A stretch of DNA of 64,000 nt from Kineococcus aurantiacus (GCF_013409345.1 NZ_JACCBB010000001.1:4650001-4714000), one strand, 5' to 3'; positions 1-19,504 are shown, counted from the stretch's first letter. Program-made: numbers and translations. Notes: generated by a model from the letters alone, not told the origin.

Positions 1-926
1 CCCAGCGGGCCGGTGCGCCGGCGCCGATGCTCGTCCTGGACATGTCCACCTCCGGGCAGGTCTCCTGGGTGTCCTCCCTGCTGGCCGGGCCCGAGCAGGC
101 TGCGGCCGTGGAGGCGCTGCGGGTCCTGGACCAGGACTCGATCAAGGCCGCGATCCTGCGCAAGGCGTGCCGCACCTTGAAGGAGGCCTCCGAGTCCGCC
201 TTCCGGCTCGGGGAAACCCTGAACACGATGGTGGTCTTCGACGAGGCGTGGCGCTACGCCCCGCCGCTGCACCTGGCCGGCGACGAGGAGGTCAAGGCCC
301 TGTCGGCGGACATCGCCGGCTACTTCCGCGACACCCGGAAGTTCGGCATCGGCTGGACGCTGATCAGCCAGTCGCCCCGCAGCGTGAACGCGGACTGCTT
401 CGACCAGATGGCGGTGCGCGTCATGGGCTACGGCCTCGGTGGCGCGGACCTGGCCAAGGTCGCCGAGCAGATGGACGACGCGGAGCACCTGAAGCTCTAC
501 CGGGCGTTCGCGCCGCCGGACGCCACCAGGCCCAAGGTGTACCCCTTCATGGTGACCGGTCCCGTCTCACCGCTGTCCTTCACCAAGGCTCCGGTGTTCC
601 TGGCCGCCTACACCGACTTCGAGGTCTTCCGCGCCGACAACCACCCCTGGATCAGCCAGGCCCGCCGCAGTCAGGGCCTGCCGGTCCTGTCCGGCGTTCC
701 CCGGCTGCGCGGCGCCGGACCGGTGGTGGCCGCCCAGGTCCCGCGGTCCACCGCCCCGGCCGGCGCCGGGAAGCGTGCCGGGGGGACGAAGGAGGCGCTG
801 GAGCGCGTCCGCGAGAACGCCGCCACCGGGGGGATCGCCGCGGGGGCCTTCGCCGGGCTGGCCGGCGACGCCGGGTTCAGCGGGGGACTGGGCAGCATCG
901 ACGACGACGACCCGCCGCCGTTCTGA
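1..926 (+). CDS. HerA/FtsK-superfamily ATPase, C-terminal part (5' end outside window)
   Basis: The reading frame is open from base 3 with no start, so the gene begins upstream; about 308 codons are visible. A Walker B-like segment, VVFDEAWRYAP (around base 232), is followed by YFRDTRKFGIGWTLISQSP. This order of an acidic strand, an arginine-rich segment and a sensor-like Q/S strand is typical of HerA/VirB4-type hexameric pumps; Walker A must lie upstream. The tail is Gly/Ala-rich and ends in an acidic, proline-rich stretch. HerA proteins are DNA translocases that act with NurA or Mre11-Rad50 in end resection. The Mre11- and Rad50-type genes directly downstream on the same strand support that role. 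A conjugation-type (VirB4/TraC) ATPase is the main alternative, but no conjugation genes are nearby. Confidence 0.72.
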   Translation, partial: QRAGAPAPMLVLDMSTSGQVSWVSSLLAGPEQAAAVEALRVLDQDSIKAAILRKACRTLKEASESAFRLGETLNTMVVFDEAWRYAPPLHLAGDEEVKALSADIAGYFRDTRKFGIGWTLISQSPRSVNADCFDQMAVRVMGYGLGGADLAKVAEQMDDAEHLKLYRAFAPPDATRPKVYPFMVTGPVSPLSFTKAPVFLAAYTDFEVFRADNHPWISQARRSQGLPVLSGVPRLRGAGPVVAAQVPRSTAPAGAGKRAGGTKEALERVRENAATGGIAAGAFAGLAGDAGFSGGLGSIDDDDPPPF

Positions 927-1037
927 CCGCCCCGGGACGGGGGCCCGGGCGCGCGGCGCCCGGTGAGAACATCGTGTCCGACGGTGCCCCTACGGTGTCG
1001 GCGCAGCGAGTGATCACGGTTGAAGGAGCCAGTGCAG

Positions 1038-2507
1038 GTGAGTGAGCCCGTCTACGAGGTCGGCTTCGTGGCCGATGCCCACCTCGGGTACGCCGCCCGG
1101 TGCGGCTCCCACCCCGCGTCAGGGCTGAACCACCGGGTCCGCGACGGCTACCTGAGCTACCGCGCGGTCGTGCGGGACATGATCGCCAAGGAGGTGGACC
1201 TGGTCATCGACGGCGGGGACACCTTCCACCAGTCCCACCCCAGCATCGGGGCCATCGTCTGGGCCCGCCGGCAGATGGAGTCCCTCGCCGCCGCGGGCAT
1301 CCCGGTCATCGGCAACACCGGCAACCACGACGCCTCGGCGGACCGCAGCAAGTCCCCGGCCACCGCGGCCATCGACGACCCCGCCCGCGGCATCGCCTAC
1401 GTCACCGAGCCCTACAAGGTCTTCGAGCCCCTGGACGGGCTGGCCGTCCACGTGATCAGCCACTACGGGCTGGCGCAGAGCGAGCGCCTGCTGCCCGAGC
1501 CGATCGACGGGGTCGTCAACCTGCTCTCCGCGCACGGGGCGGCGATGCTGCCCGGGCACGAGGTGTTCCGCTCGGTGGACTCCCCCGGGGAGGTGCCGAT
1601 CGGGTTGGACATCCTGGCCGACGACCGGTTCGCGTTCAAGGCGCTCGGCCACTACCACGGCATGGGGGAGATCCTGCCGAACGTCTGGTACGCCGGGTCG
1701 CTGGTGCGGCGCGGGTTCGCCGACCCCGCGGGAGGTCGCGGCTGGTTGCTGTGCAAGGTGTTCTCCGACGGCCAGGTCGTGGTCGAGCCGCAGTACATCG
1801 ACCAGCGACCGCAGTTCGACCTGCCGCGCATCGACGCGAAGGGGAAGACCGGGGCGCAGGTCGAGGAGGAGATCCGCGCCAACCTGGACAGCGTCGACGT
1901 CGCCGGCGCGATCATCCGGCAGGTCGTGGTCAACTGCTCGACCAGCACGCGCCGGGGCATCGACCAGCCGGCCCTGGCCGCGCTGACGGAGTCGGCGCTG
2001 ATGTGGATGCCGGACTTCGTGCGCCCCCTGGCCGTCGACGAGGCGGCCGACCGGGCCGACGGGCAGGGCGTCGACCCGGCCGGTGACGACGCCGCGGGAG
2101 CGGTCACCGTGAGGACCGCCGACAGCGTCGCGGCGTCGCTGACGACCGCCGGGTCGGCCGATCTGCCCAAGGTGTACGGCTCGTGGGTCGAGGACTACGC
2201 GACCGCCGTGGGGCTGGCGGCGGAGGTGAAGCCGATCGTGGTCACCGAGGGGGTCCGGCACCTGAAGGCCGCGTCCCAGTTCGCCGAGACCGGTGACTTC
2301 GCGGTCCCGGACGCCCCGGCCGAGCGCACCGGGCAGGAGCAGGCCGCCGCCGAGCAGGCACGACGTCTCCGGGCTGCGGCGCTGCGCTCCCCCTCGCGGA
2401 CGGTGGCCGGTGCGGACGCGCCGGGCACCGGTCCGGGCACGGACCCGGGCACGGAGCCAGCACCCGGGGTCCCCGCGGACGCCGGTGCCGGGGAGGAGCT
2501 CTTCTGA
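1038..2507 (+). CDS. Mre11/SbcD-like metallophosphoesterase nuclease
   Basis: A calcineurin-like phosphoesterase of the Mre11/SbcD type, expected to be the Mn-dependent nuclease partner of the downstream Rad50-like ATPase. The metal-binding motifs appear in order near the N-terminus: VADAHLGY (D-x-H), DGGDTFH, GNTGNHDAS, an LSAHGA histidine, and ALGHYHG (G-H-x-H), so catalysis looks intact. The last roughly 80 residues are Ala/Pro/Gly-rich and low in complexity. The frame also opens at a TTG at 1020, but AAGGAG at 1023-1028 sits 9 bases before GTG 1038, which I take as the start (489 aa). The stop overlaps the next ATG by one base (TGATG), indicating translational coupling. Confidence 0.86.
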   Translation: MSEPVYEVGFVADAHLGYAARCGSHPASGLNHRVRDGYLSYRAVVRDMIAKEVDLVIDGGDTFHQSHPSIGAIVWARRQMESLAAAGIPVIGNTGNHDASADRSKSPATAAIDDPARGIAYVTEPYKVFEPLDGLAVHVISHYGLAQSERLLPEPIDGVVNLLSAHGAAMLPGHEVFRSVDSPGEVPIGLDILADDRFAFKALGHYHGMGEILPNVWYAGSLVRRGFADPAGGRGWLLCKVFSDGQVVVEPQYIDQRPQFDLPRIDAKGKTGAQVEEEIRANLDSVDVAGAIIRQVVVNCSTSTRRGIDQPALAALTESALMWMPDFVRPLAVDEAADRADGQGVDPAGDDAAGAVTVRTADSVAASLTTAGSADLPKVYGSWVEDYATAVGLAAEVKPIVVTEGVRHLKAASQFAETGDFAVPDAPAERTGQEQAAAEQARRLRAAALRSPSRTVAGADAPGTGPGTDPGTEPAPGVPADAGAGEELF

Positions 2508-4996
2508 TGATCACCATCGAGTCGGTGGAACTGGTCAACGTCCGCAGCATCGGTCGGGCAGTCGTCGAGCCGCTCACCGACGGGGGAGTGACCGCGCTGA
2601 ACGGCCCCCGCGGGGTGGGCAAGTCCACGGTCCTGATCGGGTTGCTGTACGCCCTGTTCGGCACGACGCCCGACGGCGTACCGGCTCAGGCGCTGCGCCG
2701 GCAGGGCAGCGAGGGTGAGGTCAAGGTCGTCGTCACGTTCGTCCACGGCGGTCAGCGCGTCGTGCTCGAGCGCGGGCTGAAGGGCAGGAACGACACCCCG
2801 TACGCCAAGGTCACCCTCGACGGGGTCGAGCAGACCGTCGGCAAGATCAGAGCCGCGAACGAGTGGGTGGTCCGCCGCTTCGGCGACCTGGACGCCACCG
2901 GGTTCCTGGCCGCCTTCGTGGTGCGGCAGAAGGAGCTGGACGCCCTGGTCAAGGCCCGCGCCGCGGACCGGCGCGCGCTGTTCGAGCGGCTGGCGGGCAT
3001 CGACCGGATGAGCGACGCGGTCAAGGCCGCCCGCGCGGAGGAGGCCGCCGCCCGGACCACGCTGGAGCACCTGCCCGGCTCCGCCGAGGAGGTCGACGCC
3101 GCCCGCGCCGACCTGCAGCGCGCTCAGGAGCACGCCGCCAGGGCCTGGGAGGAGTTCGAGACCGCCAGCGCCGCCGTGGGAGCCGAGGACGAGGCCCTCG
3201 CGCTGGCCAGGGAGCGGTTCGAGGACGTCACGGCCCGGGTCCGCGTCCACCAGGAAGCCGCCCAGGCCGCTCAGCGCGCCGAGCACCACCGGCTCCTGAC
3301 CGCCGAGCGCGCCGAGCACGCCACCCGCGAGGTCGACCGGCTCACGGCCGCCTCCGCCGGCGGCAGCGCCGAAGCCGTCCACGCCGCCCGCGCCGCGCTG
3401 ACCCGGGCCCAGCAGGCCGTCGCTGAGAACCAGGCCGCGCGTGCGGCGGCCCGCACGGCCACCGCCGCCGCCACCGCCGACGCGCGGCGCGCCCAGCAGG
3501 CCCAGGCGGCGTCGGCACGGTCGCAGACGGCGCTCACCGCCGCGCGCGCCGAGGCCGACGAGCAGGCCCGGCTGGCCGCCGCCGTCCCGGCGGACCTGCC
3601 CGAGCAGGTCCAGGCCGCCACCGCCCGGGCCGCCGAGCTGCAGGAGCAGCGCGGGGTCCTGCGCGGGGAGTACCAGCGCCTCGAGGGATCCATCAAGGCC
3701 CTCAGCGCCACGGTGGACCCCACCTGCCCGACCTGCTCGACGCCACTGGCCGACCCGCACGAGCTGCTGCAGACCCTGCGCACGGCCCTGGACCGCGTCC
3801 GCGAGCAGGGGCTCACGGCCAAGGCCGAGCAGGAGCAGGCCGACGGGCGGGCGCAGGCGCTGACCGGGCAGATCGCCCGGGCCCAGCAGCTGCAGCAGGC
3901 AGCCGGGTTCGCCCGGCAGCGGCACGAGGCGGCGCTCGCGGCCGCGCAGGAGGCCGAGGCCGTCGCGGCCGCGCTGCAGGCCGAAGCTGCCGCGAGTGCC
4001 CAGGACGCGCAGCAGGCGCAGGCGCGCGCCGAGGAGGCGGCGGCTGCCGAGGGTGAGGTCCAGGCCGCGTTCGAGGCGGCCTCGGCCAGGCTGCGCCAGG
4101 CCGAGTCGGCCGCCGAGGCCGCCGCGGCGCTGGGGCGGGCCACGACCTCGGCGCAGGAGGCGCAGACCGCGGCGGCCGCCGCGGTGACCGCTGCCGAGCA
4201 GGCCGCCGCGCTGGCCGCGGCCGCCGCCGTGCCCGACACCGAGCGGGTCCAGGCGCAGGCGGCGTTGACGGAGGCCGGCCAGCGCGTGCAGGACCTCCGC
4301 TCGGCGATGCAGACCGCGCAGGCCGAGCACCGGCTGGCGGAGCAGCAGGTCAAGCACAGCGGGACGGCGCGGGACCAGGCGGAGCGGCGGCTGAAGGACC
4401 GGGCCGCCGCCGCGGCGGAGTACGAGCGCCGGACCGCGGTGCGCGAGGCGCTGGACACCTTCCGCAAGGACCGGATCGCGCGGTTGGCCCCGGAGGTCTC
4501 GGAGGTGGCCACCGACCTGATCGCGCGGATGACCAGCGGCCGGTACGTCTCGATCGAGCTGGACGAGGAGTTCACCGCGGTGGTCACCGACGACACCGGC
4601 CAGACGCGCCCCGTCACCTGGTTGTCCGGGGGTGAGGAGTCCGTGGTGGCGTTCGCGTTGCGGGTGGCGCTCGGTGAGCTGTGGGCCGGTCAGCGCGGGG
4701 GGCTGTTGTTCCTCGACGAGCCGTTCACCGCGCAGGACGTCGCCAGCCGCACCGCGATGATGGCCGCCATCCGGGACCTGCCGAACCGGCAGGTCATCCT
4801 CATCAACCACGCCTCCGAGGCCACCGACATGGTGGACCTGGTGCTCGACGTCGTCCCCGACGAGGAGACCGGCGCGCGGATCGAAGCAGCCTCGGCGTTC
4901 ACCGAGGCGCCCGACGCGGTGCTGGCCGGCATCGACGAGGAGGGTTTCGTGCCGGGGCCGACCACTCCGGACGATCGTCTGGCGAGCACCGCGTGA
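2507..4996 (+). CDS. Rad50/SbcC-like SMC-family ATPase with zinc hook
   Basis: 829 aa. The N-terminus carries the Walker A GPRGVGKST (residues about 35-43). Two long Ala/Glu/Arg/Gln-rich coiled-coil arms flank a CPTC zinc hook near residue 405, which should dimerise complexes through zinc. The C-terminal ATPase half has the signature LSGGEES and the Walker B LLFLDEPF. Together these define Rad50/SbcC, which tethers DNA ends and gates the Mre11 nuclease. A GGGAGGAG ribosome site precedes the ATG. It is shorter than typical SbcC (about 1000 aa), nearer compact archaeal Rad50 in length. The extreme alanine content of the coils gives long antisense open frames that are shadows. Confidence 0.9.
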   Translation: MITIESVELVNVRSIGRAVVEPLTDGGVTALNGPRGVGKSTVLIGLLYALFGTTPDGVPAQALRRQGSEGEVKVVVTFVHGGQRVVLERGLKGRNDTPYAKVTLDGVEQTVGKIRAANEWVVRRFGDLDATGFLAAFVVRQKELDALVKARAADRRALFERLAGIDRMSDAVKAARAEEAAARTTLEHLPGSAEEVDAARADLQRAQEHAARAWEEFETASAAVGAEDEALALARERFEDVTARVRVHQEAAQAAQRAEHHRLLTAERAEHATREVDRLTAASAGGSAEAVHAARAALTRAQQAVAENQAARAAARTATAAATADARRAQQAQAASARSQTALTAARAEADEQARLAAAVPADLPEQVQAATARAAELQEQRGVLRGEYQRLEGSIKALSATVDPTCPTCSTPLADPHELLQTLRTALDRVREQGLTAKAEQEQADGRAQALTGQIARAQQLQQAAGFARQRHEAALAAAQEAEAVAAALQAEAAASAQDAQQAQARAEEAAAAEGEVQAAFEAASARLRQAESAAEAAAALGRATTSAQEAQTAAAAAVTAAEQAAALAAAAAVPDTERVQAQAALTEAGQRVQDLRSAMQTAQAEHRLAEQQVKHSGTARDQAERRLKDRAAAAAEYERRTAVREALDTFRKDRIARLAPEVSEVATDLIARMTSGRYVSIELDEEFTAVVTDDTGQTRPVTWLSGGEESVVAFALRVALGELWAGQRGGLLFLDEPFTAQDVASRTAMMAAIRDLPNRQVILINHASEATDMVDLVLDVVPDEETGARIEAASAFTEAPDAVLAGIDEEGFVPGPTTPDDRLASTA

Positions 4997-5077
4997 CGTC
5001 GCCCGGGTCGGGACGGCCGTGACCGGTTCCGGGTGTCGCGTCCGCCGCCTCGTGCGAATGCGCTGCCGTGGCGACGG

Positions 5078-6022
5078 TCAACGACCGCTGAGGGCGAGGT
5101 AGGCCCGGGGGGAACTCCCCAGCACCCGTTTGAACGCCGTGCTCAGCGCGCTCTCCGACCCGTACCCGACCGCGGTGGCGATGGACGCCAGCGTCCGGTC
5201 ACCCGCCTGCAGCTGCTGCGCGGCCAGGGCGATGCGCCACTGCGTCAGGTACTCCAGTGGCCCCTGACCCAGCGAGCGGGAGAAGCGGGCCGCCAGGGTG
5301 GAGCGGGAAACCCCCACCGAGGCGGCGAGGTCTGCGACCGTCCACGACCGTGCGGGGTGGGTGTGCAGCGCGCGCAGCGCAGCCGCCACGACCGGGTCGG
5401 ACAGCCCGGCCAGCAACCCGGGTCCCGCTCCACCGGTGGTCGGGGCTTGGGCACGAGTTCGGGCCAGGTGCAGGCGCAGGACGTGGATGAGCATGACGGT
5501 GGCCAGGTGCTCGGCGACCAGCCCGGCCCCCAGCGGCTGGGTGCGGACCTCGTGCTCGATCTGCGCGAGAGCCCAGTCGAGGGTGTGCGCGGCGGGGGAG
5601 GTGGCGGGCACGACGATGACCGGGGGCAGGGCGTCCAGCAGCAGCGCGTGCGCGCGCTCGCCGAAGTCGAAGCTGCCGCCGAGGACGAACACGTCCTCGC
5701 CCGTGCCCGTCCGCGCCAGGCCGTCACCGGCCGTGCTCCTGGCCTGCGCGAAGGCGGTGCGGGCGTCGGCAGCCGGCAGTGACAGGTCGCTGGCCAGGGT
5801 GAACCGGGCCCGGCGGGTGAGCAGGCAGCAGTCCCCCGCGGTGAGGGGGTGGTGCTGGTCGCTGCCCTGCACGGCGAGGTGGCAGGACCCGGCGCGGACG
5901 GCGACGAACTTCACCCCCGCCGGGGGCGGGAAGCTCATCGCCCAGTCCCCGCCGGCGACCAGTCCCGCCGAGACCGAGCTCCGCACCCCGACCAGGGCGA
6001 GGACGTCCTCCAGCGGATCCAC
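5078..6022 (-). CDS. AraC-family transcriptional regulator (cupin plus AraC helix-turn-helix)
   Basis: 314 aa. The N-terminal two-thirds is a beta-rich, cupin_6-like sensing domain. The C-terminus has the double helix-turn-helix of AraC proteins (WTVADLAASVGVSRSTLAARF, then SIATAVGYGSESALSTAFKR). An open frame extends to a GTG at 6049, but GAGGAGG at 6034-6028 sits five bases before GTG 6022, which I chose. It is divergent from the SDR gene at 6124, and an 8-bp inverted repeat lies between them, so it probably controls that gene and itself. Regulators of this subgroup often sit beside oxidoreductases; the inducer is not predictable. Confidence 0.9.
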   Translation of the reverse strand: MDPLEDVLALVGVRSSVSAGLVAGGDWAMSFPPPAGVKFVAVRAGSCHLAVQGSDQHHPLTAGDCCLLTRRARFTLASDLSLPAADARTAFAQARSTAGDGLARTGTGEDVFVLGGSFDFGERAHALLLDALPPVIVVPATSPAAHTLDWALAQIEHEVRTQPLGAGLVAEHLATVMLIHVLRLHLARTRAQAPTTGGAGPGLLAGLSDPVVAAALRALHTHPARSWTVADLAASVGVSRSTLAARFSRSLGQGPLEYLTQWRIALAAQQLQAGDRTLASIATAVGYGSESALSTAFKRVLGSSPRAYLALSGR

Positions 6023-6071
6023 GGGTCCCTCCTCGCAGGGGTCTGACACGTCTTGGACGATGGCAAAAGTA

Positions 6072-6110
6072 GTCCGGTGGCCTGATCATAGACCGTCCAG
6101 CTCACCGGAC
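6072..6110. promoter_or_regulatory. Inverted repeat in the AraC/SDR divergent promoter region
   Basis: GTCCGGTG at 6072-6079 is repeated in perfect inversion as CACCGGAC at 6103-6110. The centres are 31 bases apart, about three helical turns, in the only spacer between the two divergent genes. This is a plausible binding site for the adjacent AraC protein. No clear -35/-10 pair was identified here. Confidence 0.4.
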
Positions 6111-6123
6111 CTACGGTCGAGTC

Positions 6124-7053
6124 ATGACTCGCCTCACCACTCCCTTCGGCCCCCGGGCGAGCGCGGACGACGTGCTCGCCGGGGTCGACCTCACCGGCCG
6201 GCGCTACCTGGTCACCGGTGGCGCTTCGGGCATCGGCGCCGAGACCGTCCGCGCCCTGGCCCGCGCCGGCGCGCAGGTCGTCGTCGCCACCCGCGCCCCG
6301 GGCGCTGCGGAAACCCTCGTCGAGGAGTTCCCGCAGGTCAGCGCCGTGGCCCTCGACCTGGCCGACCCGGCCTCCGTGCACGCCCTCACCGCCGCCTGGA
6401 CCGGCCGCCTCGACGCCGTGGTCGCCAACGCCGGCGTCATGGCCCTGCCCACCCGGCAGCTGAGCGCGCAGGGCTGGGAACTGCAGCTGGCCACGAACTT
6501 CCTCGGCCACCTCCAGCTCGTCACCGGTCTGCACGCGCCGCTGGCGGCCAGCGGTGGGCGGATCGTGACGGTGAGCTCGGGGGCTCAGCGCGTCAACGGT
6601 GTCGACCTGGACGACCTGCAGTTCGCCCGCCGCCCCTACGACCCGTGGACGGCGTACGCGCAGTCCAAGACGGCCACCGCCCTGCTGGCCGTCGCCGTGA
6701 GCCGCCGCTGGGCCGCGGACGGCATCACCGCCAACTCCCTGGAGCCGGGTTTCATCCACACCAACCTGCAGCGCCACCTCGACGCCGACGCGATGCGCTC
6801 CTTCGGGGCGATGGACGAGGCCGGGGAACTGGTGACGCCGGAGTACTACAAGACCCCTGCGCAGGGGGCGGCGACGTCGGTCCTGCTGGCCGCCTCGCCC
6901 CTGGTGGAGGGGGTCAGCGGCCGCTACTTCCAGGACAACCAGGAAGCGGAGGTCGTCGACGGCGGGGCCGGCACCACCAGCGGTGTCGCCCGGTGGGCGG
7001 TCGACCCCGACGTGGCGGACCGGTTGTGGGACACCGCTCAGCAGGTGGGGTGA
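6124..7053 (+). CDS. SDR-family NAD(P)-dependent oxidoreductase
   Basis: 309 aa. A classical/extended short-chain dehydrogenase of the retinol-dehydrogenase/protochlorophyllide-reductase-like type. The nucleotide-binding motif TGGASGIG lies near residues 32-39, NAG near residue 105, the catalytic serine in VTVSSGA, and the active-site YAQSK near residue 178. An N-terminal extension of about 20 residues precedes the Rossmann fold. The conserved TSVLLAASP segment is typical of the subgroup that reduces small aldehydes or ketones. It is divergent from the AraC regulator, its likely controller. Substrate unknown. Only four bases separate its stop from the converging hydrolase gene. Confidence 0.88.
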   Translation: MTRLTTPFGPRASADDVLAGVDLTGRRYLVTGGASGIGAETVRALARAGAQVVVATRAPGAAETLVEEFPQVSAVALDLADPASVHALTAAWTGRLDAVVANAGVMALPTRQLSAQGWELQLATNFLGHLQLVTGLHAPLAASGGRIVTVSSGAQRVNGVDLDDLQFARRPYDPWTAYAQSKTATALLAVAVSRRWAADGITANSLEPGFIHTNLQRHLDADAMRSFGAMDEAGELVTPEYYKTPAQGAATSVLLAASPLVEGVSGRYFQDNQEAEVVDGGAGTTSGVARWAVDPDVADRLWDTAQQVG

Positions 7054-7057
7054 GCGC

Positions 7058-7813
7058 TCACCCCGGCGTGCGGCGGGGAACCGCCGGAGCGCGGGTCGCC
7101 CTCGACCCGCCCGGACCGGCACCCGGCTCGGCGCGGTCGACGTACCCGGCGAGGAGGTCGGCCAGTTCCTCGGGCCGGCTCAGGGCTGCGCAGTGCCCTG
7201 CGTCGATCTCGTCCGGCCCGGTGATGCCGAGGCGTTCGGAGGCGACCCGACGCTGCACAGCGGGAGGGATGAACCGGTCACGAGTCGCGACGACGTACCT
7301 CGCCGCGATCCCCGGCAGCGCGTGCGAGGGCCACGCCGCCTCACCGAGCCCTCCACCGGTCGGCCGCTGCCTCGCCAGGGCTTCGCCGGCCAGTGCCGGC
7401 GGCACGTCGTGGTAGAAGGCGATCAAGGGGTCGGGATTGCCCGTCAGGCCGCCGTCCGCCGCCGCCAGCTCAGCCACCGCTCGTTCCCACCCGACGTCGG
7501 CGAACCACTCGATGCCGCTCTCACCCGGGCGCGGCACCATCGCGGTCAGGAAGACCTGCAGCGAGGCGTCCAGCCGCTCCGCCACCAGCGGGACGAGGAA
7601 CCCCCCGGAGGAGTGGCCGACCACCACGAGGTCCTCGGCCCCTGCGGCAGCGGCTGCGAACACGTCGACGCAGTCGTCCCACGTCGCCCCGTCCCGGTCG
7701 GTGGGCAGGTCCGGTGCCAGTGCCTCGTGGCCGCGCTCACGCAGCGCGCGTCGCACCAGGTGCCAGGCCCAGCCGCCGTCACCGGAACCGTGGATCAACG
7801 CGAACATCGTCAT
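7058..7813 (-). CDS. Alpha/beta-fold hydrolase
   Basis: 251 aa. An AB-hydrolase_6/esterase-type protein of the salicylic-acid-binding/hydroxynitrile-lyase-like branch. It has the oxyanion-side motif LIHGSGDGGWAW at residues 6-17, the nucleophile elbow VGHSSGG near residue 70, an acid in ATRDRFIPP, and the catalytic histidine in DAGHCAALS near residue 205. No signal peptide is visible, so it is cytosolic. The tail is Pro/Arg-rich and poorly conserved. Start ATG 7813 has an alternative in-frame ATG two codons later. It converges on the SDR gene at 6124-7053. The substrate cannot be inferred; the family covers esterases, lyases and epoxide hydrolases. Confidence 0.85.
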   Translation of the reverse strand: MTMFALIHGSGDGGWAWHLVRRALRERGHEALAPDLPTDRDGATWDDCVDVFAAAAAGAEDLVVVGHSSGGFLVPLVAERLDASLQVFLTAMVPRPGESGIEWFADVGWERAVAELAAADGGLTGNPDPLIAFYHDVPPALAGEALARQRPTGGGLGEAAWPSHALPGIAARYVVATRDRFIPPAVQRRVASERLGITGPDEIDAGHCAALSRPEELADLLAGYVDRAEPGAGPGGSRATRAPAVPRRTPG

Positions 7814-7938
7814 CCACTCCAGACCCGCGGACCGGCGGGAACTGACCGGTCACCCCTGAGGAGAACAGTCCGGGACCACGACCGGCTCGACCGGCGGCGG
7901 TCGCGCCCCTTGACCTCCAGCGCGCTGCAGCTCTTGGC

Positions 7939-8286
7939 GTGACCGGCACGACCATCGACGGGTCGGACCTGAGCGCTGCCGATGAGGAGGCCGTCCGCGA
8001 CCTCATCGCCCGCGCCGACGCCGCTCGAGCTGAACCGGCGGCCCTGCCGGCGCTGCACGCACCCGGGGCGGTCGTGGTCGACCTCGCCGTTCGGCGGGTG
8101 CTGGGGCGCGATCCCCTGGCCGTCGCCCCGGAGGAGGCGATGGCGTCACCGCTGCGCGACGGCGCTGACCCCCGTGCGCTGCGGTGCACGGGGGCTCCCA
8201 CCCACGTGGTGGCGCGCTCGGAGCAGGGCTGGCGGATCGTGCTGGCGCAGACGACTCCGCTGGCCGGGCCGTCGGCGACCGGGTGA
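7939..8286 (+). CDS. SgcJ/EcaC-like (NTF2/SnoaL-fold) protein, internally shortened
   Basis: 115 aa. The N-terminus (DEEAVRDLIARADAARAEP, then ALHAPGAVVVDL) and C-terminus (GWRIVLAQTTPLA) resemble the SgcJ/EcaC/DUF4440 group of NTF2-fold proteins. These are usually 125-145 aa. Between ASPLRD and HVVARSEQGWRI the roughly 25 residues that normally form the central strands are missing, and a short unrelated stretch (GADPRALRCTGAPT) is present. I therefore suspect an in-frame internal deletion, and the fold may not close. The start is GTG 7939 without an obvious ribosome site. It sits between the hydrolase and a TetR gene. Function unknown; it may be a decaying gene. Confidence 0.6.
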   Translation: MTGTTIDGSDLSAADEEAVRDLIARADAARAEPAALPALHAPGAVVVDLAVRRVLGRDPLAVAPEEAMASPLRDGADPRALRCTGAPTHVVARSEQGWRIVLAQTTPLAGPSATG

Positions 8287-8318
8287 CGGTGCGGGCCGGG
8301 CCAGGTCGGCGGGTTCGA

Positions 8319-8939
8319 TCAGCGCGGCCGTGGGCTGGTGGGCCCGGCGAGGCTGGCGCGGAGCGCCGGGGCCAGGTCGTGGATCAGCTGCTCGCGCGAC
8401 ATCCCGGCCGAGGGCTGCAGTCGCAGCACGTAGCGGGTGAAGACCACGCCGGCCAGCGTGCTCACCGCGGCGCCGGCCCGGGCGGTGGCCCGCCGCCCGC
8501 CGATCTGCTCGGCGAGGCGCGCGATCACCTCCTGCTCGAAGAATTCAACGACAGCGCGCAGCACGGCGGGTTCCTCCAGGGCCATGACGACCAGGGCGCG
8601 CAACGCCGGGCCGCTGTCGGGGTCCTCCCACGCCGCGGTCAACGCGGCCAGCAACCGCTCCGGCAGTCGCGCCGGGTCTCCGGCCAGGGCGCTGGTCAGC
8701 ACCTGCGGCGGGCTGAGGGTCAAACGCATCACGGCGCTGAAAAGGCCCTGCTTGGAACCGAAGTAGTAGCTGATCAGCGAGGCGTCCACCCCCGCGTCCG
8801 CGGCCACCGCGCGCAGGGTCGTCCCCGTGTAACCGCGGCTCAGCAGTCGTCGGCGCGCCGCCAGAAGGATCCGCTCCCGGGTTCCCGGAGCGCCTGCCCG
8901 GCTCGGATCGACAGGTGGCCGTCCGCGCTTGGTGTTCAT
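8319..8939 (-). CDS. TetR-family transcriptional regulator
   Basis: 206 aa from ATG 8939 (MNTKRGRPPVDPS); the frame also opens at 8987, but the basic GRPP start is typical of the family. The N-terminal helix-turn-helix reads TRERILLAARRRLLSRGYTG, then LRAVAADAGVDASLISYYFG, matching TetR_N. The C-terminal domain has the WEDPDSGPALRALVV and ARLAEQIGG features of the TetR_C_17 type. It is divergent from the conserved hypothetical gene at 8980, with only about 40 bp between the starts, so that gene is the probable target. Ligand unknown. Confidence 0.9.
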   Translation of the reverse strand: MNTKRGRPPVDPSRAGAPGTRERILLAARRRLLSRGYTGTTLRAVAADAGVDASLISYYFGSKQGLFSAVMRLTLSPPQVLTSALAGDPARLPERLLAALTAAWEDPDSGPALRALVVMALEEPAVLRAVVEFFEQEVIARLAEQIGGRRATARAGAAVSTLAGVVFTRYVLRLQPSAGMSREQLIHDLAPALRASLAGPTSPRPR

Positions 8940-8979
8940 CACCGTTGAAGCTAGCGGGTGCGGGGCGGAACGTTCCCCC

Positions 8980-9825
8980 ATGTCCACTCACCCGCACCTC
9001 GCCCGTCTCCCGCGAACCGGTGGCCCCGTGCTCCGCCGCAGCGCTCGACACCCACAGCCGGAGCGCGGCCAGAGGCAGCGCTGGACCCGCGTGCGGTTGA
9101 TCGAGCCCTCCGGCGCCGGTTACCTCTTCATCGGTGCCAGTTCCGGGCCCTGGCCGCTGCCGGTGGCTCTGCCTCGGGCTCGCCGGCGCGCCCTGCTCAG
9201 CCTGCTGCACGCCGGCGCGGAGCAGCTGCGCTCCCCGGCGGGGCGGGAAGCCGGTGTCGAGCGTGCCGACGTCTTCCGCGCCGTGCTGCGCCCACCGGGC
9301 CGGGGACGCCCGTTCGCGCGGCGGACCGCCGATCGTGCCGGCGACGCCGGGGGCGGTGACCTCCTCGACGCCGTGCTGCTGGTGCAGACCCGGGACCCGT
9401 CCACCGCCGCCGCCCGACTGCGCAGCGACGCGATCGGCGATCTGCGCCGGCGTCTGGAAGCCGCCGGCGCCGCCACCGTGGTCTTCACCGGCAGCAACGT
9501 GCGCCGCATCGGTGACGTCGAGCACGACCGCCGAGGGATCTTCCTGTTCAACTACTTCAGCGCCGAGGACACCGAGGAGAACCTGCACGCCTGGCAGTAC
9601 ACCGCGGGCTGGTTCCAGGAGCAGACCGGCCTGGACAACTCCACCGTCCTGCAGCCGGCGGGGCCTGCGGGTGGCTACAGCCTCATCAACCACTGCCGCT
9701 GGGAGCACCTGCGCGACGTCCTGCCCGCACTGGTCCTCGAACCCAGTTTCCGCCGCTTCGTGCTGCGCACGTTCGCCGACCACAGGACCGCCGCGAACCC
9801 GGTCCTGTACCGCTTGGACGGGTGA
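8980..9825 (+). CDS. Conserved hypothetical protein, unknown function
   Basis: 281 aa from ATG 8980. No signal peptide or membrane segment is seen. The C-terminal half is strongly protein-like and rich in aromatic residues: FLFNYFSAEDTEENLHAWQY, AGWFQEQTGLDNSTVL, SLINHCRWEHLRDVLPAL and VLRTFADHRTAANPVLY. This looks like a conserved small alpha/beta domain, distantly like dimeric alpha-beta-barrel (antibiotic monooxygenase-type) modules, though I cannot assign it. The N-terminal third is Arg/Pro-rich. It is divergent from a TetR regulator, which suggests inducible expression. The frame also opens upstream at 8929, but that would overlap the regulator start. Confidence 0.65.
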   Translation: MSTHPHLARLPRTGGPVLRRSARHPQPERGQRQRWTRVRLIEPSGAGYLFIGASSGPWPLPVALPRARRRALLSLLHAGAEQLRSPAGREAGVERADVFRAVLRPPGRGRPFARRTADRAGDAGGGDLLDAVLLVQTRDPSTAAARLRSDAIGDLRRRLEAAGAATVVFTGSNVRRIGDVEHDRRGIFLFNYFSAEDTEENLHAWQYTAGWFQEQTGLDNSTVLQPAGPAGGYSLINHCRWEHLRDVLPALVLEPSFRRFVLRTFADHRTAANPVLYRLDG

Positions 9826-10102
9826 GGAGGTGGTTGCGGGGACCGCGCGAGCGGACGCGGCGTGCACCGCGCGCGGCCGGGGGACCGCCGTCGAGCCCGG
9901 CAGGCGCGGTGGTCCGGAGCGGTGGGGTGGAGGAGCCTGCTGCGGCCCAGGAGGCCGACGACCGGTCAGGCGGACACCCACGAGAGTTTTCGACCGAGCC
10001 GGGCACCGGTACGGACGTGGCGTCGTGCTGGTCCACGGCAGAGCTGCTGAGAGGAGATCGCCGTCCTGTCCCCGGGTGGTACCAGCGCCCGGCGCGGTGA
10101 CC

Positions 10103-10990
10103 TCAGCGGCGTGGGCCGGGCGGTGCTCCGACGGACGCCAGCTCCACCCAGAACTCCTCCGGCACCCAGGTACCGGCCGACCTCGCCACCGCCCGCACCG
10201 CCTTCTCGTCGGCGACCCGGAGCACGGTGGTCGTCGTGGCGAGGTCGCGCAGGTGCGACTGCAGCAGCGCAGTGCGCGGGTCGATGCCGAACTCGGCGCA
10301 CACGGCGCGCAGGCGCGCGGACGGCAGGGCGGCGCTGCCCAGGTCGCCGGAGGCCCTGGACCGCCGGAGCGGTACCCGTACGGCCTCGAGCCCGGCGGTG
10401 GCGTTCCCCCTCACCGGCCCGGTGCGGGTCGTGCGTGCGAGGCGGTCGTCGTGGTCGAGCACCAGTGCGGGCAGCCCTCGCTCCAGGCACGCCTCGAGCG
10501 CGGCTGCGGCACCGCTCAGCGCCACCAGGCGCACCGCTCCCTCGTCACGGGCCCGTGCCAGTTCCTCCGCCAGCACGCTCGCGCTGCCCGCGGCTGTGCG
10601 CGGGCCCGGCGCCCCGTCCCTGTCGTCCAGGAGCAGGACGTCGGGGCCGTGGCGTCCGAGCCGGGCGCCGAACGTGGCCAGACGGTGTCGCCACCTCGAC
10701 GGTGGCGCCCCGTCGCGCAGGGGCATCGTCGTCGCCACGGTGATCGAGGAGGGGTCCTCCACCCGGTCGAAGGCGGGACGCACCTCCTGCTGGACCTGCC
10801 GGTCCGTCAGGTCCGACAGGTCCAGGAAGGTGAACGGCCCGTCCAGCACACCGGCCAGGACCGCACCGCCGAGCCGCGGTCCCGTGCCCGGCCGGGCCGC
10901 GAGACGCAGACCCACCGCGGGCAGTTCCACGCAGCCCCGCGTCGGCCGGAACCAGGGGATGTGCGGGGGCAGCACGTCGGCCCAGCTCAC
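10103..10990 (-). CDS. Aldo/keto reductase-like TIM-barrel protein lacking the catalytic tetrad
   Basis: 295 aa. The layout follows D-threo-aldose-1-dehydrogenase-type aldo/keto reductases: ARLGRHGPDVLLLDDRDG at the 'DLLLLHDPD' position, LARARDEGAVRLVALSG at the 'GKVRAVGVS' position, and a C-terminal STVVVGAR-like segment followed by WVPEEFWVELASV. The usual catalytic residues are not recognisable: the FDTAxxYG tyrosine position reads FTFLDLSD, VATK reads VATTMP, and the LLHD histidine is D. It may be a pseudoenzyme, a regulatory subunit or a highly diverged oxidoreductase. It lies 64 bases downstream of the E2 gene on the same strand and is probably co-transcribed with E1 and E2. Start GTG 10990 is weakly supported. 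Confidence 0.55.
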   Translation of the reverse strand: MSWADVLPPHIPWFRPTRGCVELPAVGLRLAARPGTGPRLGGAVLAGVLDGPFTFLDLSDLTDRQVQQEVRPAFDRVEDPSSITVATTMPLRDGAPPSRWRHRLATFGARLGRHGPDVLLLDDRDGAPGPRTAAGSASVLAEELARARDEGAVRLVALSGAAAALEACLERGLPALVLDHDDRLARTTRTGPVRGNATAGLEAVRVPLRRSRASGDLGSAALPSARLRAVCAEFGIDPRTALLQSHLRDLATTTTVLRVADEKAVRAVARSAGTWVPEEFWVELASVGAPPGPRR

Positions 10991-11054
10991 GGCGCCCCGT
11001 GGCCCGGGCGCAGGTGTCGCGTCGCGCCGCTGCCGTCACCGTGGGCAGGAGCGC

Positions 11055-12584
11055 TCACGTGGCCAGCGTGATCAGCGGCCGCTGGAGGGTGTCGGTGAAG
11101 ACGCGCAACCACCGGGCGGCCAGCGCGCCGTCCACGGCGCGGTGGTCGACCGACAGGACGACGTTCATCACGGTGGCGACGGCGAGGCCGCCGTCCTCGT
11201 CCACCACGGGGCGGCGCTGCCCGGCGCCCACCGCGAGGATCGCGGCGTGCGGGGGGTTGATGATGGCGCTGAACTCCTCCACGCCGTGCATCCCCAGGTT
11301 GGTCACCGCGATGGTGCCGCCCTCCAGTTCCCGCTGCACCAGCTTGCCCGCATCGGCCCGGGCGGCCAGGTCCCGCACCTGAGCGGCGATCCGGGTGATC
11401 GGCGTGGTGTCCACCGAGCGCAGCACCGGAGTCACCAGTCCCCGCGAGGAGGCGATCGCGACACCGACGTCGACGCTGTCGAAGCGGTTCAGCGCCTCCT
11501 CGCCCCAGGTGACGTTCACGTCGCTCACCTGCGCGGAGGCCAGGGCGACGGCCTTGAGCACGAAGTCGTTGACCGAGACCCGCACCGGCGCGACCTCGTT
11601 GACCCGGGCCCGCAGGGCCAGGAGGTCGTCGAGGTGGACCGAGGCCTTGAGGTAGAAGTGCGGGGCCTGCTGCTTGCTCTGGACCAGCCGGGCGGCGATG
11701 GCCTTGCGCAGCCGGCTGTGCGGCACCGCGCCGGCCGCCGACCCCGGCGCCGCCGGCGGCTGCACCGGCAGCGAGGTTCCCGGTGCACCCGCCGGGGTGC
11801 CGCTGCGGTCCGCGTCGGCACCGGCGACCGGTGGCGTGGCTGGGGCGTGCACGGGGTGTTCGGTCTGCGCCTCGGGCGGCGTCTGGGCCAGGCTGGTGGA
11901 GGCCAGGTCGGCGGTCCCGTCCGGCTGCTCCCCCGCCTCCGGGGGGTTCTGCGGCGCTCGCCGGTCCGCTGCGGGCCGGGAACCGTCCGCGGGGGAGGTG
12001 GCGAGCGCCTGCTCGACGTCACGGCGCACGATCCGCCCGCCCGGCCCGGTCCCGGTGACGTCGTCCAGCGCGATGCCTGCGTCCTTGATCATCTTGCGGG
12101 CCAGCGGGCTGGCGAAGACCCGCTGCTGCCCGGACCGCGGGTGCTCCGGGGGCGCCGCGGTGGGCCGTCCCTCGGGTTCCTCGGTGGGTCGGGGGACGGA
12201 TTCGGCCGCGGGAGCGGGGAGGGTGACGACGGGCTCGTCCCGGTGCTGAGGGTCGGCCGGCGCCACCGGCGGCTCGGCGCCGGCGCCCGCGCTGGTCACC
12301 CCCAGTTCGGCCAGGAGCGCGTCGAGGTCGGCGATCTCCTCCTCGGGAGCCAGCAGCAGCGCCACCGGGGCCCCGACGTCGACGGTCGCTCCCGCCGGGG
12401 CCAGCACGCGTGCCAAGGTCGCGGCCTCCTCGGCCTCGATCTCGACGACGGCCTTGTCGGTCTCGATGCTGACGAGCGCCTCGCCGGGGCGGACGCTGGA
12501 GTTCTCGGCCACGAGCCACTCCGAGACGACGGCCTCGGTGGCGCCGGTGGACACCTCGGGCATGTTCAGCAGTTTGGGCACCAC
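11055..12584 (-). CDS. Dihydrolipoamide acyltransferase (E2) of a 2-oxo acid dehydrogenase complex
   Basis: 509 aa. It has an N-terminal lipoyl domain with the lipoylated lysine in SIETDKAVVEIEA (about residue 45) and an Ala/Pro linker. A peripheral-subunit-binding domain follows (VFASPLARKMIKDAGIALDD, then GTGPGGRIVRRDVE), then a second linker and the acyltransferase core ending with the active-site motif DHRAVDG near residue 485. It accepts the acyl group made by E1 and passes it to CoA. An AAGGAGG site lies just before two GTG codons (12584 and 12581); either could start translation. It follows the fused E1 gene by about 30 bases. No E3 (dihydrolipoamide dehydrogenase) lies in the window, so E3 must be borrowed from elsewhere. 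Confidence 0.92.
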   Translation of the reverse strand: MVPKLLNMPEVSTGATEAVVSEWLVAENSSVRPGEALVSIETDKAVVEIEAEEAATLARVLAPAGATVDVGAPVALLLAPEEEIADLDALLAELGVTSAGAGAEPPVAPADPQHRDEPVVTLPAPAAESVPRPTEEPEGRPTAAPPEHPRSGQQRVFASPLARKMIKDAGIALDDVTGTGPGGRIVRRDVEQALATSPADGSRPAADRRAPQNPPEAGEQPDGTADLASTSLAQTPPEAQTEHPVHAPATPPVAGADADRSGTPAGAPGTSLPVQPPAAPGSAAGAVPHSRLRKAIAARLVQSKQQAPHFYLKASVHLDDLLALRARVNEVAPVRVSVNDFVLKAVALASAQVSDVNVTWGEEALNRFDSVDVGVAIASSRGLVTPVLRSVDTTPITRIAAQVRDLAARADAGKLVQRELEGGTIAVTNLGMHGVEEFSAIINPPHAAILAVGAGQRRPVVDEDGGLAVATVMNVVLSVDHRAVDGALAARWLRVFTDTLQRPLITLAT

Positions 12585-12614
12585 TCCTCCTTCCGGACTG
12601 CGTCGTGGGGCCGG

Positions 12615-14792
12615 TCAGGCCGGCCGGATCTGCTCGAGCGCGGCGACGATCTCCTCGACGCCGGCGATGGCGGCGCGTTCGAGGACCTTGCTGATGCTGG
12701 GGGAGGCCTCGGCGCCGGTGACGCGCTGGACCGGCTGGTCGAGCCAGTCGAACAGCCGCCGCTGGATCTCGTCGGCCAGCCAGCCGCCGTAGGAGGTGCC
12801 GATGGCGCCCTCCTCGACGATGAGCACGTTGTTGGTCTTCTTGATGCTCGTCTCGAGGGTTTCCCAGTCGAGGCTGGCCCGGTCCAGCCAGCGCAGGTCG
12901 ACGACGTCGGCGTCGACGCCGGTGGTCTCGACGGCCTGCAGGCACTTGGCGACCATCCCCAGGTAGGAGACGACCGTCAGTTCGCTCCCCTCGCGGCGCA
13001 GCGCGGCGCGGCCCACGGGCAGGACGTGGTCGAGGTCGTCGGCGGGCGCGGTACCCCTCGTCGCGTACAGCTCGACGCTCTCCAGCACCACCACCGGGTC
13101 CTGGCACAGCAGGGCAGCGTTCATCAGCCCGACGTAGTCGAAGGGGTCGCTGGGGGCCACGACCCGCAGACCGGCGGAGGTGGTGAGGATCCCCGCGGGG
13201 TCCATGGAGTGCTGCGAACCGTAGCCGGTGCCGGCGGCCAGCTTGCTGCGCAGGACGAAGGGCACCGCGCTGTGACCGCCGAACATGTGCCGGGCCCGGG
13301 CGACCTGGTTGAACAACTGGTCGGCGGCCACCCACATGAAGTCGGCGTACATGAACTCCACGACGGGTTTGTACCGCCCGTCGAGCGCGATGCCGCACCC
13401 CAGACCGGTGAAGGCGTTCTCGCTGATGGGGGTGCCCAGCACCCGTCCGGGGTGGTGGGCGGCCAGGTCCCGCGTCGCGCCGTTGGTGCCGCCCTTGAGC
13501 TTGTGCACGTCCTCGCCGAGCACGACGATCGACTCGTCGGTGCTCATGCGCCGGTCCATGACCGCCGCGACGGCGTCGATGAAGCGCCACTCCCGGGTCG
13601 GGCCCGTGAAGGTCGCCAGTTCCTCGTGCCGCGTTCCGTCGAACTCGCTGAGGTCGCCGCGGATCCCCACGTCGACGAAGTCGCGGTCGGGCCACTCCGA
13701 GGCCTTGATGCGGCGGGCGGAGGGTTTGCCGTCGGGGTCCGGTTCGAGCAGGTCGGCCTCGATCTGGCCCATCACGGTCTCGACGTCGGCCAGGGCCCGG
13801 TCGATCTCCTCGGCCGAGGCCAGGCCGCGGCGCTCGACGTGCCGGCGCACCGCGAGCAGGGGGTCGCGCTCACGCCAGGCGCGCTCCTCGTCCTTGCCGC
13901 GATAACCGAATGCGCTGCCTGGGTAGGGACCGTTCTGGTGGAAGAAGCGGTACACGTCGGCCTCGATGAGCGTGGGACCCCCGCCACCGCGCATGAACTC
14001 CAGCGCCTGCTGCATCGCCAGGTGCACCGCGAGGGGGTCCATGCCGTCCACCCGCCAGCTGGGGATGCCGAAACCCGGACCCCGCGCCGAGAGCCGGGGC
14101 TCGCCGGTGGCCTCGCTGACGTGGGTGGAGACCGCGTACTGGTTGTTCTCGATGAAGAAGCAGATGGGCAGCTTCCACGCCGCGGCCAGGTTGAACGTCT
14201 CCAGCACCGAACCGATGTTCACCGCTCCGTCGCCGAAGTAGGTGACCGAGACCGCGTCCGTCCCGGCCTGACGGTCGGCCCAGGCGAAACCGGCCGCCTG
14301 CGGGACCCCGCCGCCGACGATGGCGTTGGTGCCCATCGCCCCGGCTTCGCGCCACTGCAGGTGCATGGAACCGCCGCGCCCGCGGCAGTACCCGCGCGCC
14401 AGGCCGCAGATCTCGGCCAGCGTCCGCTCCAGCACGGTCCGCACGTCGGGGGTGATCTCCGGCAGCGACCCCGGGGAGGCCTTCGCGACGTGACCGAAGG
14501 CCTTGGCCAGGAACTGGTGGTGACCGCGGTGCGAACCGGTGATCTGGTCGTCGCTGCGCAGGCCGAGGATGGAACCGACCGCGCCGCCCTCCTGGCCGAT
14601 GCTGGAGTGCGCCGGGCCGTGCACCAGTCCCTGGCCGGCCAGGTCCAGGACGTGCTGCTCGAACGTGCGGATCCAGATCAGCTGGCCCAGCGCCTGCAGC
14701 AGGACGTCGCCGTCGGCGCGGTCCCAGTCCTCTTCGGTGGTGCTCAGCTCCACCCAGGGCGCGGACGCGTCGAGCGGTCGGGACGTGGCCAT
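12615..14792 (-). CDS. 2-oxo acid dehydrogenase E1, alpha and beta subunits fused
   Basis: 725 aa, combining an E1-alpha half and an E1-beta half. The alpha half has the thiamine diphosphate motif GDGAVNIGSVLETFNLAAAW ending in FFIENN (near residues 184-212), GGSMH and GPAHSSIGQEG. The beta half begins near residue 395 (FIDAVAAVMDRRM) with VVLGEDV, EFMYADF and a transketolase C-domain (NNVLIVEEG). It decarboxylates a 2-oxo acid, or an acetoin-like ketone in the AcoAB branch, and acylates E2 lipoyl groups. Fused E1 proteins are known but less common than split ones. GAGGAGGAG just before ATG 14792 fixes the start. It is divergent from the VOC gene, with a candidate GntR operator between them. 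Confidence 0.92.
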   Translation of the reverse strand: MATSRPLDASAPWVELSTTEEDWDRADGDVLLQALGQLIWIRTFEQHVLDLAGQGLVHGPAHSSIGQEGGAVGSILGLRSDDQITGSHRGHHQFLAKAFGHVAKASPGSLPEITPDVRTVLERTLAEICGLARGYCRGRGGSMHLQWREAGAMGTNAIVGGGVPQAAGFAWADRQAGTDAVSVTYFGDGAVNIGSVLETFNLAAAWKLPICFFIENNQYAVSTHVSEATGEPRLSARGPGFGIPSWRVDGMDPLAVHLAMQQALEFMRGGGGPTLIEADVYRFFHQNGPYPGSAFGYRGKDEERAWRERDPLLAVRRHVERRGLASAEEIDRALADVETVMGQIEADLLEPDPDGKPSARRIKASEWPDRDFVDVGIRGDLSEFDGTRHEELATFTGPTREWRFIDAVAAVMDRRMSTDESIVVLGEDVHKLKGGTNGATRDLAAHHPGRVLGTPISENAFTGLGCGIALDGRYKPVVEFMYADFMWVAADQLFNQVARARHMFGGHSAVPFVLRSKLAAGTGYGSQHSMDPAGILTTSAGLRVVAPSDPFDYVGLMNAALLCQDPVVVLESVELYATRGTAPADDLDHVLPVGRAALRREGSELTVVSYLGMVAKCLQAVETTGVDADVVDLRWLDRASLDWETLETSIKKTNNVLIVEEGAIGTSYGGWLADEIQRRLFDWLDQPVQRVTGAEASPSISKVLERAAIAGVEEIVAALEQIRPA

Positions 14793-14836
14793 GGCTCCTC
14801 CTCGAACGGCCTCGTGGATGTGAGCACTCTGGCACT

Positions 14837-14898
14837 GATCGGATCCAACGGCAAGACTATGCTGGACAATGACCAACGATCAGCATTCGATCGGATCC
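14837..14898. repeat. Two direct GATCGGATCC repeats in the E1/VOC divergent promoter region
   Basis: GATCGGATCC occurs at 14837-14846 and again at 14889-14898, 52 bases apart in the same orientation. They bracket the motif at 14858-14869 in the spacer between two divergent genes. A related GATC lies between them (14878). Such paired identical decamers beside a regulator gene suggest protein binding sites. Confidence 0.45.
14858..14869 (+). promoter_or_regulatory. Candidate GntR operator or promoter element (TATGCTGGACAA)
   Basis: TATGCTGGACAA reads TTGTCCAGCATA on the other strand. Closely related words occur at 17403-17414 (CATACTGGACAG) and 27285-27294 (TGCCAGCATA), each overlapping the -10 area of a promoter in this locus. 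The only GntR regulator of the locus starts 640 bases away. TATGCT could itself act as a -10 element with a poor -35. Confidence 0.4.
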
Positions 14899-14911
14899 GA
14901 AGGAGGATGCG

Positions 14912-15445
14912 ATGGCTACCCACCGAACCCTGCCGGGCCTGCAGCGCCTGGACCACGTCGGCTTCACCGTCCCCGACCTGCGACAGGCCCGCGACTTCCT
15001 GGTCGACGTCCTGGGGTGCGAGTACCTGTACTCCCTGGGGCCCTTCGCCCACGAGGACGACTGGATGCGCACGCACCTGAACGTCGCTCCGGACACCGTC
15101 ATGCGCCAGCTGCACTTCTTCCGCTGCGGACCGGCCGCGGTCTTCGAGGTGTTCGAGTACGACGCTGCCGACCAGCGGTCGGACCCGCCGCGCAACAGCG
15201 ACGTCGGTGGGCACCACGTCGCGCTGTACGTCGAGGACCTCGACGCCGCCGTGGACTACCTGCGGACCCAGCCCGGGGTCACCGTGCTCGGCGAGCCCAC
15301 CAGCAGCCGCGGGCCGAGCGAGGGGCAGCGCTGGATCTACTTCCTGTCCCCCTGGGGCATGCAGTTCGAGCTGGTGTCCTACCCCCTCGGCAAGGCCTTC
15401 GACCGGGCGGCGACTGGTCCGGCCGGGCCGCGGTCGGACCGCTGA
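14912..15445 (+). CDS. VOC-family (glyoxalase/dioxygenase-fold) protein
   Basis: 177 aa. A single vicinal-oxygen-chelate protein with two beta-alpha-beta-beta-beta modules. The first opens with RLDHVGFTVPDLRQARDFLV (histidine ligand) and ends with AAVFEVFEY. The second opens GGHHVALYVEDLDAAVDYL and ends MQFELVSYP, with glutamates in metal-ligand positions. Members are glyoxalases, epimerases or ring-cleavage enzymes that use a divalent metal to bind vicinal oxygens. AAGGAGG five bases before ATG 14912 supports the start. It is divergent from the E1/E2 operon and precedes the GntR regulator by about 60 bases, so it probably acts in the same pathway, on a hydroxy-keto intermediate. Confidence 0.87.
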   Translation: MATHRTLPGLQRLDHVGFTVPDLRQARDFLVDVLGCEYLYSLGPFAHEDDWMRTHLNVAPDTVMRQLHFFRCGPAAVFEVFEYDAADQRSDPPRNSDVGGHHVALYVEDLDAAVDYLRTQPGVTVLGEPTSSRGPSEGQRWIYFLSPWGMQFELVSYPLGKAFDRAATGPAGPRSDR

Positions 15446-15503
15446 CCGTCCCCGTAGATTGGGTCCCGCCTCCGGACGGCCCGGGCGGCGGGAGGGAGGA
15501 GCC

Positions 15504-16163: not shown

Positions 16164-16177
16164 GCGACGCGGGAGCT

Positions 16178-16203
16178 CCGTCGCGGCGCCGAGATCGCGA
16201 CGG
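16178..16203. terminator. Hairpin between convergent GntR and reductase genes
   Basis: CCGTCGCG (16178-16185) pairs with CGCGACGG (16196-16203) across a 10-base loop. It lies in the 46-base space between two converging genes. There is no T-tract, as usual in this GC-rich genome. Confidence 0.45.
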
Positions 16204-16209
16204 GCCGCG

Positions 16210-17283: not shown

Positions 17284-17379
17284 GTGACCTCCAGGGGACG
17301 GGCCGGACCTCGGGCCCGGCGGCGCAGCCCGGCCGGCGGGACCGGCCGGGGTGGGCTTCAGGACGTCGTGGGGCGGACC

Positions 17380-18691: not shown

Positions 18692-18697
18692 GGTGAG

Positions 18698-18738: not shown

Positions 18739-18758
18739 TCCTGCCGGCCCTGCGGCCC

Positions 18759-19472: not shown

Positions 19473-19504
19473 GGTCACTCCTCACCGACCGGGCTCATCG
19501 AGGT

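Follow-up and report, generated by a model that had tools for sequence, protein, structure and literature searches.

A nurA-herA-mre11-rad50 gene set with plasmid relatives, probably a DNA-end resection operon, on the chromosome of Kineococcus aurantiacus

What is a set of genes best known from archaea doing in an actinobacterium, and how did it come to be there? The question is raised by the first 4,996 nucleotides of a 64,000-nucleotide stretch of the Kineococcus aurantiacus genome (hereafter the window; G000:C1:4650001-4714000, in a genome of 5.03 Mb and two contigs), in which the original prediction, made from the sequence alone, had read a HerA-type ATPase, an Mre11-type nuclease and a zinc-hook Rad50 on one strand of actinobacterial DNA. 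Open reading frames, motifs, and profile and structure matches bear out all three genes in place and strand, and the host is indeed an actinobacterium, Kineococcus. In the window and the upstream extension of the contig together, four genes lie in the order nurA-herA-mre11-rad50, all (+). With a probability of roughly 0.6, we read them as a DNA-end resection operon that is related to plasmid-borne sets and has been transplanted onto the chromosome of some Kineococcus; within this reading the biochemical role, the RecA pathway, co-transcription and a plasmid as the source are inferred. DNA upstream of the window is numbered here as L009, in which position 15001 is position 1 of the window and to which 4635000 is added to obtain G000:C1 coordinates.

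The Rad50 protein contains Walker A GPRGVGKS, a CPTC hook (residues 407-410), LSGGEE, LLFLDEP and INH, so that the motifs of an ABC head, a CxxC zinc hook in mid coiled coil and coupling to mre11 are all present, the last through a TGATG at window 2505-2509 that had been predicted correctly. Its family profile matches a solved archaeal Rad50 with an E value of 1e-36 and 130 bits, while E. coli SbcC reaches 40 bits. The Mre11 protein has the full metal-binding set that had been claimed for it, namely DxH (19-21), GD..H (65-70), GNHD (101-104), H172 and GHxH (210-213), and its sequence matches Mre11/SbcD entries of the PDB; a low-confidence predicted model (mean pLDDT, the per-residue confidence score, of 58) finds 3av0 as its best Foldseek match, at E 9e-14. 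As GTG 1038 is preceded by GAAGGAG, it is a likelier start for mre11 than TTG 1020. The pair is like SbcCD in joining a nuclease and an ATPase encoded by overlapping genes, and differs from it in the preference of the Rad50 profile for the archaeal protein and in an Mre11 that scores under the sbcd cut-off. A search for a canonical SbcCD elsewhere in the K. aurantiacus genome gave no match above cut-off, and a second SbcD-like match at C1:2290033 proved to be a short phosphoesterase adjoining a PASTA kinase.

The 5' end of the window falls inside herA, whose frame, open from base 3, stops at 926. The first gene of the window is the C-terminal extein of HerA only; upstream of it come the N-extein and an intein. 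Walker B is present as VVFDEA; the intein interrupts Walker A in this strain, whereas relatives have it whole. The intact HerA of K. radiotolerans scores 28.3 bits with Pfam DUF87 (cut-off 23.2) and that of Rhodococcus 31.8 bits, and the best match of the HerA family profile in the PDB is Sulfolobus HerA (E 7e-16, 61 bits), with TdpA at 14 bits. A VirB4/TraC identity for this gene was rejected, as no VirB4/TraC match was obtained and HerA models scored best, which leaves it HerA/DUF87-like rather than VirB4-like; judged by these profiles, it is a distant HerA and not the equivalog described by the NCBIfam models. A NurA had been expected just upstream of the window, and a nurA gene lies there. 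The Pfam NurA model gives the Kineococcus protein 12.4 bits, under the cut-off of 21; among nine aligned homologues, four match it at E<0.01, the best at 6e-7. The structure predicted for the K. indalonis homologue, with a pLDDT of 84, has NurA as all ten of its best Foldseek matches in the PDB (best E 6e-9), the acidic residues D89, E148 and D163 are invariant in the homologue alignment (A7), and nurA adjoins herA in nearly all loci whose both ends are covered. The ratio of nonsynonymous to synonymous substitution (dN/dS) against K. radiotolerans is 0.10-0.27 over all four genes, which by this comparison are all under purifying selection.

By analogy with the archaeal enzymes of Sulfolobus and Pyrococcus and those of Deinococcus, Rad50-Mre11 would bind and trim a double-strand end, a HerA hexamer would then pump the DNA into a NurA dimer, and NurA would degrade it, leaving a 3' overhang for RecA. 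K. radiotolerans appears to be without Ku and has RecB and RecC (PMC2587704), and recombination is for that reason its likely route of break repair.

Mre11 was found in 4 of 11 Kineococcus genomes, K. aurantiacus included, with only weak, partial matches elsewhere in the order. Of 396 Actinomycetota genomes, two have HerA: K. aurantiacus and a genome of 1.8 Mb (G186), in which the stretch read (L115 7065-10056) holds nurA-herA alone. Homology to the radiation-resistant soil bacterium K. radiotolerans (genome G008 in these comparisons) ends sharply at both edges of the block (L009 10403 and 20010), the flanks not being common to the two species; the 20 kb right flank (window 5001-24900) has no syntenic counterpart in G008. 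When the flanks were used to look for conserved surroundings or an unoccupied site in other Kineococcus, the matches were scattered only, and one of them overlaps an S-adenosylmethionine (SAM) riboswitch. At fourfold-degenerate sites, herA, mre11 and rad50 differ from their K. radiotolerans counterparts by 0.20-0.26 and nurA by 0.33, whereas core gene pairs mostly differ by 0.3-0.5, pairs near or under 0.1 having been taken as antisense frames. Taken together, the patchiness, the edges, the fourfold sites and the dN/dS values fit a block that was acquired laterally and is kept by selection; a lower rate of evolution in these genes would be an alternative to transfer for the low fourfold-site difference. 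Of the proposal of a genuine repair module in a radiation-tolerant lineage, the repair role is thus the favoured part, and the idea of a lineage trait does not hold in view of the patchy distribution. Linkage of herA to mre11-rad50 is conserved in relatives.

Relatives outside Kineococcus are on plasmids. Searches with HerA (tblastn) found it on Corynebacterium crudilactis pCRULAC1, one Dietzia plasmid and three Rhodococcus plasmids, and all four genes are present on those examined; a Prescottella contig carries herA, mre11 and rad50. On pCRULAC1, Rhodococcus sp. DN22 p1 and Dietzia sp. unnamed1, HerA and Mre11 are 34-37% identical to those of Kineococcus. These plasmid loci differ in that two (-) genes separate nurA from herA, in that further genes precede mre11 on its herA side, and in an Mre11 with SDYHT in place of the Kineococcus GHYHG, which changes one metal-site His to Asp (L029, L030, L031, L040). 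The Mre11 tree joins Kineococcus with the plasmid proteins at 99/99 and the HerA tree at 87/82, a moderate support since long branches meet there; the Rad50 tree lacks resolution. In Kineococcus itself, the K. radiotolerans block adjoins a homologue of RepA and the G004 block adjoins an SSB; both proteins have relatives on pCRULAC1. In the Dietzia and Rhodococcus plasmids, dnaG lies beside the four-gene set, and pCRULAC1 carries elsewhere dnaN, ssb, a RecG helicase, parA, two repA and one conjugal transfer gene. Most of the named neighbours on the plasmids serve replication or repair, which fits resection better than defence. The original beneficiary of the set would probably have been a large plasmid.

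More distant relatives widen this picture. Two megaplasmids of Bacillaceae, from Pontibacillus (0.9 Mb; L119 5064-11673) and Priestia (1.1 Mb; L122 4826-11631), carry the four genes in this order, with a HerA that is very distant, and probably represent a separate assembly of the set; on a Bacteroidia contig the pairs nurA-herA and mre11-rad50 face each other. Twelve more actinobacterial plasmids have Mre11 without detectable HerA, and the three examined also have Rad50. On these three (L116, L117 and L118, plasmids of R. pyridinivorans and Streptomyces anulatus) no HerA was seen nearby, and in two of them other genes separate mre11 from rad50. A phage origin was rejected: phage records yielded no match to HerA or Mre11, IMG/VR had no Mre11, and a single NurA-HerA contig was all that turned up. 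In the open literature searched, we found no report of this four-gene set in Actinobacteria, and a search for it on megaplasmids returned Thermus papers only.

In K. aurantiacus, an insert of 1843 nt splits the Walker A of herA (GMSGSGK|T) after the Lys codon and before that for Thr; the herA genes of relatives have no intein. The insert begins ALALDTP and ends IPTHN, with block B DADHNW, block F PVRC and LAGLIDADG-type motifs within it. It has Ala1, a non-nucleophile, the Trp-Cys-Thr triplet, a terminal His-Asn and Thr at +1; a Trp-Cys-Thr triplet without a nucleophile at position 1 defines class 3 inteins (PMC6195587). Its kin are the DnaB P-loop class 3 inteins of other Kineococcus, 40-65% identical by segment. 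With these and the mycobacterial ones (PMC6195587) it shares the ALALDTP start, the WCT triplet, the block B DxxH and insertion between the P-loop Lys and Ser/Thr, and it differs from them in its herA host, the +1 Thr, some 200 extra residues and a frameshift. The extra stretch of about 200 residues (intein residues ~85-282) precedes the LAGLIDADG part and is absent from all DnaB inteins of the genus. Within Kineococcus, class 3 inteins at the DnaB P-loop range from full-length with endonuclease to mini-inteins (G001, G003, G005, G006, G007, G009, G011); K. aurantiacus DnaB itself carries a short one (G000:C1:2607763-2608092), and no match was found in K. radiotolerans. The open literature searched held no report of an intein in HerA or of its P-loop as an insertion site, which thus appears not to have been described there before.

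HerA of this strain would work only after the intein had spliced out of the ATP-binding loop. The reading frame of the intein shifts by one base after LAGLLDSDGTPAPQG, and the extra base sits in or near a GGGG run at L009 ~14075-14085. It is one base in excess, because the joined pieces align with DnaB inteins without a gap around the joint, and we infer that the intein would splice without it. As assembled, translation goes out of frame before block F, which would block splicing, and HerA therefore cannot be completed. This bears on an explanation for the strain that is compatible with any reading of the family, namely that the locus is decaying here and HerA has been killed by the frameshift. 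We hold this as a tentative possibility. The frame change is present in the assembly, and we saw in the intein no start codon, with a convincing ribosome-binding site before it, from which the downstream half of herA could be made; mre11 and rad50, however, are intact, and the HerA exteins have not gathered extra amino-acid replacements on this branch (11 vs 12 and 4 vs 2), from which it follows that the frameshift is either recent or not real. A true mutation and a single-base assembly error in the G run are equally possible. A coding-frame scan made about 4 frameshift calls per 100 kb in K. aurantiacus and no fewer in K. radiotolerans, several of them at gene overlaps, and for this reason does not separate mutation from error. 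One of its other calls, at window 47374 (C1:4697374), is not at an obvious gene overlap.

Table 1. Positions of the four genes, the intein and the adjoining features, in window or L009 numbering.
Feature	Position	Strand	Remarks
nurA	L009 ~10581-11897	+	upstream of the window
herA N-extein	L009 12017-12583	+	GTG start at 12017; ends GMSGSGK
class 3 intein in herA	L009 12584-14426	+	614 codons + 1 base
herA C-extein	L009 14427 onward = window 1..926	+	gene start upstream of the window
mre11	window 1038..2507	+	likely GTG 1038; longest open reading frame 1020-2507 from TTG 1020
rad50	window 2507..4996	+	zinc hook CPTC; start overlaps mre11 stop
left homology edge vs K. radiotolerans	L009 10403		
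right homology edge vs K. radiotolerans block	window 5010 (L009:20010)		14 bases past rad50
SAM riboswitch of left neighbour	L009:9712-9806	-	in front of monooxygenase gene

The block lies between a monooxygenase gene (-) on its left and a gene for an AraC-type regulator (-) on its right (Table 1). The DNA of the SAM riboswitch resembles G008:C2:100793 and G007:C8:161702.

Several points weigh against the resection operon proposed here. HerA, at 32 bits against NCBIfam equivalog cut-offs of 970 and 800, and Mre11, which is below equivalog and subfamily cut-offs alike (Mre11_Halo, 42 vs 550 bits; sbcd, 23.5 vs 77.65 bits), are both far under those models. The four genes are not always together, since some plasmids have mre11-rad50 without detectable herA, and HerA of this strain is broken as assembled. 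In D. radiodurans, loss of nurA or herA cut recombination and had no effect on radiation resistance (PMC5448004). In addition, the resection products of archaeal NurA-HerA are disputed (PMC4641729, PMC9960219), and the 3' overhang step is for that reason put forward by analogy only.

The original prediction had also allowed for a defence system built from the same parts, in which Rad50-Mre11 would sense foreign ends of phage or plasmid DNA and HerA-NurA would degrade the invader; little evidence points to it, and we think it unlikely. The patchy distribution can be counted in its favour, as can PADLOC models run on the three window genes, of which two match the Rad50 (the Rad50-like mad3, 113 bits; LmuB, 90 bits) and HerA defence models match weakly; the Rad50 scores, however, are similar in size to that of an ordinary Rad50 model (97 bits). 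Foldseek rank 11 for NurA is part of the TdpAB complex, a defence complex; HerA, however, is nearer to Sulfolobus HerA than to TdpA (61 bits vs 14 bits only). The genes around rad50 read as nurA, herA, mre11, the AraC-type regulator and the monooxygenase, and with PADLOC covering the three window genes none was recognised as a Lamassu or MADS partner; the named plasmid neighbours, as described, point to replication and repair.

A role in DNA transfer or plasmid maintenance, with a NurA-HerA pump and Mre11-Rad50 acting on transferred or replicating plasmid DNA, seems less probable still. It draws on the large plasmids that carry the kin, one of which has conjugal transfer genes, and on a parallel in Thermus transjugation, where TdtA is the ATPase for DNA donation (PMC5365140) and a T. 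thermophilus mutant of a NurA-like protein is defective (PMC5448004). In Kineococcus, however, the block is chromosomal and no transfer genes were recognised beside it, yet purifying selection has been kept. Lastly, a plasmid-born resection machine whose motor is held off by the class 3 intein, so that splicing switches resection on, with the block F Cys perhaps tying HerA activation to redox or the frameshifted intein perhaps working as two pieces, is a reading we consider highly improbable. Splicing of the mycobacterial DnaB intein is reportedly redox-dependent.

The reading as a laterally acquired resection operon also touches on earlier work. Two papers of 2008 give Krad_2553/2554 as the SbcC/SbcD of K. 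radiotolerans (PMC2587704, PMC2441631), and the second used them with Deinococcus SbcCD in a test for positive selection linked to radiation. They are probably the genes of this block, because the only match to the SbcD model (E<=0.001) in the K. radiotolerans genome is the block's Mre11, the identity of the locus tags being deduced from this match. If so, Krad_2553/2554 would be laterally acquired and probably not orthologous to Deinococcus SbcCD.

The clustering of nurA, herA, mre11 and rad50 in archaea has been known since 2004, according to work cited in PMC9960219. The Kineococcus set shares with the archaeal locus (Sulfolobus, Pyrococcus) the same four linked families and their catalytic motifs, and archaeal structures are the best matches of the NurA and Mre11 models; it differs in being distant in sequence, in its mesophilic actinobacterial host, in its plasmid kin and in the HerA intein. 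The gene order had been called characteristic of archaea, a wording that was too strong, as nurA-herA alone is common in bacteria and Oceanithermus profundus has hepA(herA) with sbcD and sbcC downstream, the same four-gene architecture in a bacterium (PMC5448004). The nurA-herA pair is likewise shared with Deinococcus and Thermus (PMC9960219, PMC5448004). Unlike the sets of Deinococcus, Thermus and Oceanithermus, that of Kineococcus is actinobacterial, apparently mobile and related to plasmid-borne sets. The archaeal-style four-gene set presents itself as an apparently mobile bacterial unit, carried in two phyla by plasmids of very large size and in Kineococcus by chromosomes.

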